Shown: positions 33,463 through 63,993 of the stretch, in pieces
How positions within the stretch are numbered: the stretch's first letter is position 1
Layout of the letters: each line of letters opens with the position of its first letter
From: Elizabethkingia sp. YR214
GTDB taxonomy: Bacteria > Bacteroidota > Bacteroidia > Flavobacteriales > Weeksellaceae
Length of the DNA stretch: 64,000 bases
Assembly: GCF_003058195.1 (NCBI RefSeq)
Contig: NZ_QBUH01000001.1
Span: forward strand, 372,001 to 436,000
Reading direction: 5' to 3'
Notes under the pieces: generated by a model
What the model saw: only the letters and a program-made list of their open reading frames with translations
Databases searched by the model: none
What the model was told of the DNA's origin: nothing
Program-made: the position numbers and the translations under genes

Positions 33463-34260
33463 TTAATTATTTGCAATTCTTGCCTTCTCCATACTCATAT
33501 CATCCACTGGTGATTTTAACCATTGTGAAGAAGCAAGGTAATTCTGATCCGGATAATAAATAAATAATATATTTTTCTCTTTTATTGCATCGATAAGAGA
33601 GGCAGCTATATCTCTTGGAACAGCCGGACAGCCCCAGCTTCTTCCGATACGTTTGTGCTGTATTGCAAAAGCCTCGTTAACATAATCCGCACCATGCATT
33701 ACAATTGCTCTTTTGTAGGCAGCATCGTTATAACCTGCATCTAATCCTTCTAATTTCAGAGAATATCCATTATCCCCCTGATAAGTATTCTCTGTTGTAT
33801 AGAAGCCTAAGCTGCTCTGATGTGAACTTTCTCTGTTTGAAAATTTTTCTGCAAACTCTTCTCCTGTTCCTTTTCCGTGTGCAACCAAAGAGTTGAAAAT
33901 AATCTTCTTCTCTTTTACATCAATCACCCATAATCTTTTCAGGTTAGAAGACAGACTAAAGTCGCAGATTGTTAAAAGGTTACTATTTTCAGGCACTTTC
34001 CCTGCCTTTTTCAGGTTTACATATCCAAGATATGCTTTTTCGAAAACTGTTTCTGATAATTTGCTGAAGCCGGTAAAGTCAATTGCCTCGTACAATACTG
34101 AGGAAGAAGAGACAGCTTCATGTTTTGTTTCTGTTTTTTTTACCGTCACGGCAACGTCTTTCTTTACCAAAGATTTTGATTCCTCAAAATTGGTATCGTT
34201 GACAAAAAAAGAGGTTGACACAACATAAACAGAAATTAATGAAATGATTAATTTCTTCAT
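33463..34260 (-). CDS. L,D-transpeptidase catalytic-domain (YkuD_2-type) protein
   Basis: A 265-residue exported protein; the N-terminus is a signal sequence (LIISLISVYVVSTSFFV). The catalytic domain (about 85-235) carries AIVMHGADYVNEAF and the active-site segment GRSWGCPAVPRDIA with Cys211 and the conserved His before it. This is the murein L,D-transpeptidase catalytic-domain family, expected to modify peptidoglycan cross-links. It has an exact -7 element and a 5' leader almost identical to those of the NlpC/P60 gene at 63.2-63.8 kb. Confidence 0.88.
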   Translation of the reverse strand: MKKLIISLISVYVVSTSFFVNDTNFEESKSLVKKDVAVTVKKTETKHEAVSSSSVLYEAIDFTGFSKLSETVFEKAYLGYVNLKKAGKVPENSNLLTICDFSLSSNLKRLWVIDVKEKKIIFNSLVAHGKGTGEEFAEKFSNRESSHQSSLGFYTTENTYQGDNGYSLKLEGLDAGYNDAAYKRAIVMHGADYVNEAFAIQHKRIGRSWGCPAVPRDIAASLIDAIKEKNILFIYYPDQNYLASSQWLKSPVDDMSMEKARIANN

Positions 34261-34270
34261 GTAATACTAT

Positions 34271-34298
34271 TTAAAATGTCTTTTTTGAAAATTGCTTC
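34271..34298 (-). promoter_or_regulatory. Conserved 5' leader of the L,D-transpeptidase gene
   Basis: On the minus strand it reads GAAGCAATTTTCAAAAAA, then GACATTTTAA. The first 18 bases are identical to the leader of the NlpC/P60 lipoprotein gene (63880-63897), and the second block recurs with a 3-4 nt insertion. It begins 2 nt after the -7 element, so it is probably at or near the mRNA 5' end. Confidence 0.65.
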
Positions 34299-34300
34299 GG

Positions 34301-34308
34301 CAAAATTA
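34301..34308 (-). promoter_or_regulatory. -7 promoter element (TAATTTTG) of the L,D-transpeptidase gene
   Basis: Exact TAnnTTTG match on the minus strand, 40 nt before the ATG, with TTTGTTC directly upstream. Confidence 0.65.
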
Positions 34309-34366
34309 GAACAAATTCAATATCAACACTTTAAATAGACATAAGTTTAACTTTATTTAAGAAACT

Positions 34367-34909
34367 TTAACGCTGAGATTCACTATCCGGAACAAAATCC
34401 AGACTAACAGAATTCATACAATAGCGTACTCCTGTAGGCTCCGGCCCATCGTTAAAAACATGACCTAAATGGGAGTCACATCTACCACAAACAACCTCTA
34501 TTCTTTCCATTCCGTGAGTAGAGTCTCTTTTATATTTCACAGCATCTTTTTCAGATTGAAAGAAACTAGGCCATCCGCAAGTGCTGGCGAACTTTGAAGA
34601 TGAGCGGAAAAGATGATTTCCACATACGGCACAGTAATATTCGCCTAATTCATCTGTTTCATTATATTTCCCGGTAAAAGGACGCTCTGTTGCAGCTTCT
34701 CTGGCAACCGCATAGAGATCCGGAGACAATATCTTTTTCCACTCCTCATTGGAAACATTTAATTTCGTTTTATCTGTTCTGGAGTAGTATGGATTGTTTT
34801 TTGATGTTTCTGTATTCATAGAATTGGTTTTAACAGGCACTTTCATTTCTGAGCATTGTAAGAACAAACTCAGAATGCATAGATTAAAAATAAGATGCCA
34901 GATTTTCAT
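34367..34909 (-). CDS. msrB: Peptide-methionine (R)-S-oxide reductase, lipoprotein form
   Basis: A 180-residue MsrB with an N-terminal lipoprotein signal (CILSLFLQC). The domain begins SNEEWKKILSPDLYAVAREAATERPFTGKY. The structural zinc cysteines are CAVC and CGRC; CGWPSFF is present and the catalytic Cys164 is in RYCMNSVSLDF. It repairs methionine-R-sulfoxide in proteins, here at the envelope. The gene diverges from the DUF445 gene across only 26 nt, with a -7 element just 4 nt before the ATG, suggesting a leaderless mRNA. Confidence 0.94.
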   Translation of the reverse strand: MKIWHLIFNLCILSLFLQCSEMKVPVKTNSMNTETSKNNPYYSRTDKTKLNVSNEEWKKILSPDLYAVAREAATERPFTGKYNETDELGEYYCAVCGNHLFRSSSKFASTCGWPSFFQSEKDAVKYKRDSTHGMERIEVVCGRCDSHLGHVFNDGPEPTGVRYCMNSVSLDFVPDSESQR

Positions 34910-63847: not shown

Positions 63848-63864
63848 ATATATTTAATTACTGT

Positions 63865-63897
63865 GTTAAAATGTACTCTTTTTTTGAAAATTGCTTC
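63865..63897 (-). promoter_or_regulatory. Conserved 5' leader of the NlpC/P60 gene
   Basis: On the minus strand: GAAGCAATTTTCAAAAAA, then AGAGTACATTTTAAC. The first 18 bases are identical to the L,D-transpeptidase leader. The last part, GTACATTTTAAC, is also repeated in inverted form at 63950-63961. Confidence 0.65.
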
Positions 63898-63898
63898 A

Positions 63899-63906
63899 CA
63901 AATTTA
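63899..63906 (-). promoter_or_regulatory. -7 promoter element (TAAATTTG) of the NlpC/P60 gene
   Basis: Exact TAnnTTTG on the minus strand, 51 nt before the ATG, with TTTGTC immediately upstream as in the L,D-transpeptidase promoter. Confidence 0.65.
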
Positions 63907-63949: not shown

Positions 63950-63993
63950 GTACATTTTAACACTTTTTAACGTTTATATAGAGAGTGTTAAAA
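63950..63993. repeat. Inverted repeats upstream of the NlpC/P60 promoter
   Basis: GTACATTTTAAC at 63950-63961 is the exact inverse of GTTAAAATGTAC at 63865-63876, so the promoter is bracketed. TTTTAACACT at 63955-63964 also pairs with AGTGTTAAAA at 63984-63993. The second pair lacks a T tail in either direction, so it is not a simple terminator. The window ends soon after. Confidence 0.5.

Follow-up and report, generated by a model that had tools for sequence, protein, structure and literature searches.

Putative GTTAAA operators and a possible envelope regulon joining L,D-transpeptidase and MepS-like genes in Weeksellaceae

Introduction

Two unrelated cell-wall enzyme genes of Elizabethkingia sp. 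YR214, one encoding an L,D-transpeptidase (ldt) and the other an NlpC/P60 lipoprotein, carry the same 18 nucleotides, GAAGCAATTTTCAAAAAA, just downstream of their promoters. The promoters lie 30 kb apart within the 64,000-nucleotide stretch of DNA analysed here (the window). Are these genes regulated together, and if so, is the 18-mer the element responsible? The original prediction offered two possibilities: common post-transcriptional control through a shared untranslated leader, or an operator for an envelope-stress regulator. Our results partly supported this interpretation, as they favored an operator but not the leader. Relevant features are collected in Table 1. The NlpC/P60 protein matched best to the NCBIfam model PRK10838 (MepS/Spr family), although its 122 bits fell below the cut-off of 186; we refer to the gene as mepS-like.

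Table 1. Genes, promoter elements, and putative operators in the window
Feature	Position	Strand	Basis and remarks
L,D-transpeptidase gene (ldt; YkuD_2), 265 aa ORF	33463..34260	-	Pfam PF13645, E=1e-67
NlpC/P60 lipoprotein gene, MepS/Spr-like, 215 aa	63200..63847	-	Pfam PF00877, E=1.3e-27
ldt promoter/leader 18-mer GAAGCAATTTTCAAAAAA	34281..34298	-	exact match; predicted -2 to +16 from an inferred +1
NlpC/P60 gene promoter/leader 18-mer GAAGCAATTTTCAAAAAA	63880..63897	-	exact match; predicted -3 to +15 from an inferred +1
ldt -7 box TAATTTTG	34301..34308	-	sequence; sigma-A consensus TAnnTTTG (PMC9723704)
NlpC/P60 gene -7 box TAAATTTG	63899..63906	-	sequence; TAnnTTTG type
ldt putative operator array GTTAAAGTTT CTTAAATAAA GTTAAA, three half-sites, 10-bp pitch	34346..34371	-	sequence
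NlpC/P60 putative operator GTTAAA-AAGT-GTTAAA, 10-bp pitch	63956..63971	-	sequence; pair in 40/40 orthologs
TTTAACA (inverted half-site), NlpC/P60 leader	63864..63870	-	sequence; role uncertain

Results

The 18-mer coincides with the predicted transcription starts

A search of the window confirmed that the 18-mer is identical at the two sites, with each copy immediately 3' of a TAnnTTTG box. Other parts of the proposed common layout were less robust. The -7 boxes are shared along with the 18-mer, while the TTTGT sits just a few bases 5' of the -7 box, away from the -33 position. The similarity said to trail the 18-mer also failed to hold, as the ldt sequence CATTTTAA reads CATCTTAA in three sister Elizabethkingia species. 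A sigma-54 promoter was set aside, the -7 boxes being of the sigma-A type.

In Flavobacterium psychrophilum, the TAnnTTTG box (the sigma-A consensus) occupies positions -12 to -5 (PMC9723704), which predicts transcription starts near 34296 for ldt and 63894 for the mepS-like gene. With these predicted starts, the 18-mer would comprise 2-3 discriminator bases followed by 15-16 nt at the 5' end of each message.

We then asked how unusual this identity is. The 17-mer core of GAAGCAATTTTCAAAAAA is present at these two promoters and nowhere else in the 4.05-Mb genome. When 100-nt upstream regions (456 kb) were compared in 71,253 pairs, only two pairs had an 18-mer in common; the upstream DNA inspected for the second pair resembles the hairpin/U-run terminators of neighbouring genes. 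Third-order Markov copies of the window contained a mean of 0.17 exact repeats of at least 18 nt, or roughly one case in six. The identity is unusual, though not impossible, as a chance event, and it was also picked post hoc.

The shared leader is confined to one clade

Three other Elizabethkingia genomes carried the 17-mer at the ldt and NlpC/P60 genes and at no others. The whole intergenic DNA at these genes is nearly identical in the three sister genomes, and retention of the 18-mer inside Elizabethkingia is little informative because nearly all intergenic DNA is conserved there. Across 40 orthologs per gene, the 18-mer was present in 4 ldt and 4 NlpC/P60 promoters, all from Elizabethkingia sensu stricto; none of the more distant orthologs sampled carried it. 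The nearest relative outside this clade (G001) lacked it in both leaders. In this genome, the two proteins are 69% and 66% identical to their counterparts, and both promoters retain the -7 box and GTTAAA sites. Another genome (G005) has GCAATTTTCAAAAAA in the NlpC leader and not in the ldt leader. The leaders are therefore not conserved in relatives beyond Elizabethkingia sensu stricto, an outcome that the original prediction itself had named as refuting.

Among the matches listed in a genome-collection scan for the 17-mer, two were the Elizabethkingia promoter hits, and the six others that were inspected (L010, L013, L025, L034, L039, and L072) look unrelated and mostly coding. A family-wide pattern, TTTGN0-4GAAGCAATTTT, occurred 0-3 times (rarely 5) per genome at scattered positions with variable spacers, and in the ortholog promoters inspected, the pairing of the two genes through this pattern was not repeated outside Elizabethkingia. 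Neither leader had a credible Rfam family match, and both folded no better than shuffled sequences (z-scores of -1.1 to +0.8).

These data bear on the idea that the leader itself is a post-transcriptional element, whose first ~15 nt a small RNA, an RNA-binding protein, or the ribosome would bind. Its appeal lies in 18 identical nucleotides at a matching position relative to the -7 box of two unrelated genes, in the rarity of such pairs, and in its retention by four Elizabethkingia genomes. Yet the confinement of the 18-mer to one clade, with leaders not conserved in relatives, leaves such control unsupported. The genome is also devoid of any other perfect 17-nt complement. On the grounds of conservation, folding, and Rfam searches, we rejected the leader as a conserved cis-regulatory RNA element, and we regard post-transcriptional control through it as very improbable.

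We lean instead toward an origin of the 18-mer by local copying (gene conversion or a short duplication) or by chance, with no function of its own. Restriction to one clade, similarity spanning ~40 bp with small gaps, and the repeat frequency of the Markov copies are all consistent with this. So is the presence of GCAATTTTCAAAAAA in only the NlpC leader of G005, which suggests that the NlpC leader may have been the source of copying. Against it, the 18-mer begins exactly where the start region of each transcript is predicted, a placement not favored by chance, and few upstream pairs share a repeat of this length. In our favored reading, the 18-mer is what is transcribed first from the two genes within a single clade and is not a co-regulating device. 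An origin by copying or chance is compatible with an operator located elsewhere in the two promoters.

GTTAAA repeats form a stronger shared feature

GTTAAA repeats further upstream, missed in the original prediction, are the stronger feature common to both promoters. The window contains only two sites matching GTTAAA-N3-6-[GC]TTAAA, one preceding ldt at 34356-34371(-) and one preceding the mepS-like gene at 63956-63971(-). The expected number was 0.38, and two sites were reached in 7 of 100 shuffles. Genome-wide, N4-5 sites were modestly enriched (20 compared with 14 for the reversed control), such that the site count alone is weak evidence.

The spacing of half-sites was more distinctive. 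Background statistics were drawn from one complete contig and additional genome stretches. In 456 kb of unselected sequence, same-strand [GC]TTAAA words formed 7 pairs at a 10-bp step, with no other step exceeding 2. Over 855.6 kb, part of which was chosen around known sites, the 10-bp step again led with 12 pairs, and no other step had more than 5. The complete 695.6-kb contig has seven 10-bp pairs, every one of them intergenic, although ~90% of the 456 kb in which the coding share was measured is coding. Two of the seven overlap one another at ldt; the others precede htrA, the mepS-like gene, and three tandem TonB receptors. Further putative targets include a glucosaminidase gene and, in G073, an LTXXQ/Spy-like gene.

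Other sites were noted in passing. The pairs at the three tandem TonB-receptor paralogs (L218, L219, L220; G000:C1:219-228 kb) lie ~10 bp from the -7 region, are often preceded by TTAACA, and have a register unlike those of ldt and mepS. A GTTAAAGTTTGTTAAA site occurs upstream of a DinB-like gene in several genera (L464:8177, G000:C10 ~38.2 kb; L281, L287, L304, and L310 in relatives). In Elizabethkingia, it lies between the DinB-like gene and a divergent AAA+ ATPase-like gene (names from sequence reading). Upstream of ldt, an msrB-like gene (SelR domain, 34367-34909) has its stop codon inside the first ldt half-site, so that the putative operator and the end of msrB overlap.

The repeats are conserved and hold a fixed register

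Orthologs were sampled from about a dozen genera; as these genomes are related, the ortholog counts given here are not independent events. GTTAAA-N4-GTTAAA was found upstream of all 40 mepS-like orthologs. For htrA, 28 of 31 orthologs had an N4-5 pair, with 10- and 11-bp pitches alternating among them. Orthologs of ldt had the one-turn N4 spacing in 25 of 40 cases and the two-turn N14-15 spacing in 34 of 40. Within this genome, by comparison, an N4 pair was present at 6 of 378 genes, and these were the targets themselves. The inverted word TTTAAC was located within 45 nt of the ATG in 29 of 40 NlpC/P60 orthologs and in 13 of 378 comparison genes.

Distances to the promoter were similarly constrained. 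The last half-site was 48-49 bp from the -7 box in 39 of 40 mepS-like promoters, 37-39 bp in 27 of 28 htrA promoters, and 36-38 bp in 32 of 35 ldt promoters. The register is thus nearly fixed for each gene, and that of mepS-like promoters differs from those of ldt and htrA by about one helical turn. Such near-fixed, helix-phased distances suggest a regulator on one face of the helix, most likely an activator.

Short half-site direct repeats spaced by one helical turn are a hallmark of OmpR/PhoB-family response regulators, and the sites described here share this feature, as seen in the 10-bp peak and in the mepS-like and htrA orthologs. A regulator of this family would bind GTTAAA half-sites arranged in helical phase (pitch, 10-11 bp) within a predicted operator upstream of TAnnTTTG-type sigma-A promoters, and would most likely activate. 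The suggestion of an operator for an envelope-stress regulator is therefore supported, with the difference that the element is the upstream GTTAAA repeat instead of the 18-mer and is also found at htrA.

An RprX/RprY-like system is the leading candidate regulator

Nine proteins in the genome contain an OmpR-type DNA-binding domain. If the box is real, we give about an even chance to an RprX/RprY-like pair (G000:C1 ~650 kb), the best candidate. The response regulator matched best to the NCBIfam family RprY, at 301.8 bits against a cut-off of 370, and the gene for an RprX-like kinase is adjacent. Homologs of this kinase were found in all 70 genomes searched.

The kinase promoter carries [GC]TTAAA-N9-TTTAA[GC] in 30 of 30 orthologs, with no direct pairs there. 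Within the 695.6-kb contig, this 21-bp inverted form was confined to htrA, the rprX promoter, and one coding place. Where a second perfect inverted copy was present, it was always 63 bp away (16 of 16 kinase promoters). The suggestive arrangement of paired inverted sites 63 bp apart could represent a looped autoregulatory switch. In the kinase promoters L366-L395, the second inverted site lies near the start codon. As the hexamers are direct repeats at targets but inverted at rprX, two different proteins could be involved. Synteny contributed less: in several genera ldt adjoins rprXY or sits a few genes away, which is weak support because the mepS-like gene shares the same broadly conserved neighbourhood.

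Two other two-component systems have related repeats. The kinase promoter of L297 (G000:C2:588650-593000) contains GTTATC, GTTATC, GTTAAA, and GTTATC at pitches of 11, 10, and 10 bp. We discarded this system as the regulator, since a close kinase match was found only in Elizabethkingia G000 and G002 and the system is not family-wide. In L298 (G000:C9:106700-110700), three GTTAAT repeats with an 11-bp pitch lie just upstream of the kinase gene. Versions of a single hexamer may be recognised by regulators that are related to one another.

A strict 11-bp CTTAA array together with TTAACA words, a candidate Pho-type box, was observed at L259:2220-2300 (G000:C5 ~332.5 kb), with a PhoB/PhoR-like operon on one side and, on the other, a divergent TonB-receptor-like gene. 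Could the response regulator encoded here (PhoB/PhoP-like; G000:C5 ~332 kb), instead of RprY, read the GTTAAA box? In Bacillus subtilis, the boxes of PhoP and WalR consist of TTAACA or TGTWAH direct repeats at ~11 bp and closely resemble TGTTAA repeats. The placement of the array, with the PhoB-like operon and a TonB receptor gene on its two sides, the 10- or 11-bp pitch of htrA boxes, and the boxes at three TonB receptors would also fit a PhoB-like regulator. However, the array is built of CTTAA at strictly 11 bp, whereas most sites at ldt and the mepS-like gene have GTTAAA with a 10-bp pitch. Moreover, no recognised phosphate gene was found among the 20 genome-wide sites, whose products were profiled in part, and the 21-bp inverted form at both rprX and htrA points away from PhoB. 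We therefore consider the PhoB-like protein an unlikely reader of the box.

Discussion

Considered together, the sequence data lead us to favor, as a probable explanation, a single envelope regulon that includes both ldt and the mepS-like gene and is controlled at transcription through the putative GTTAAA operator, likely by the RprX/RprY-like two-component system. The signal would presumably come from the envelope, and the inverted hexamer copies in the rprX promoter suggest that the system may regulate itself.

Known targets of the Cpx response include degP and two LTXXQ proteins, CpxP and Spy. In E. coli, the CpxR box is GTAAA-N5-6-GTAAA (PMC9600279), and Cpx targets also include the L,D-transpeptidase gene ldtD (PMC4791840). 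The putative operator described here is likewise a direct repeat at about one helical turn, with targets that include an L,D-transpeptidase, an HtrA-type protease, and (in G073) an LTXXQ protein. In contrast, its half-site, as read from sequence, is GTTAAA and not GTAAA, and its targets extend to a MepS-like endopeptidase and TonB receptors. Three of the nine regulators were scored against the NCBIfam CpxR model (RprY-like, 118 bits; PhoB-like, 121 bits; L297, 91 bits; cut-off, 341). Given the different half-site and the lack of a CpxR among the three profiled regulators, we did not class the system as a member of Cpx.

B. subtilis offers another parallel, as WalR controls cell-wall endopeptidases including NlpC/P60 enzymes. 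The boxes of PhoP/WalR are of a similar type; however, these are Firmicute regulators, the pitch here is mostly 10 bp, and we claim no WalR ortholog.

For RprY itself, a study in Porphyromonas gingivalis demonstrates autoregulation, with binding to its own promoter as well as those of groES, dnaK, and clpB (PMC3646045). In the searched passages of the P. gingivalis papers, groES, clpB, dnaK, ahpC, and nqrA appear as targets and no binding motif is described. RprY probably acts as a repressor there. The Elizabethkingia candidate has RprY as its best NCBIfam family, and the sites in its kinase promoter similarly suggest autoregulation. It differs in scoring below the RprY cut-off and in our proposal of activation, as opposed to probable repression in P. 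gingivalis.

A broader model can be advanced more tentatively. RprXY may fill the role of Cpx in an envelope-stress regulon extending throughout the Weeksellaceae, linking the remodelling of peptidoglycan by an L,D-transpeptidase and a MepS-like endopeptidase to HtrA proteolysis in the periplasm. The same hexamer would be read as direct repeats at targets and as inverted pairs 63 bp apart (six helical turns) at its own promoter. Searches of the open-access literature returned no description of a GTTAAA box or an envelope-stress regulon in this family.

The Weeksellaceae include opportunistic pathogens with high intrinsic beta-lactam resistance. A conserved operator would join genes for 3,3-crosslinking, endopeptidase, and HtrA functions and provide a concrete experimental handle, for which our analysis supplies the genes, the site, the promoter register, and a candidate regulator.
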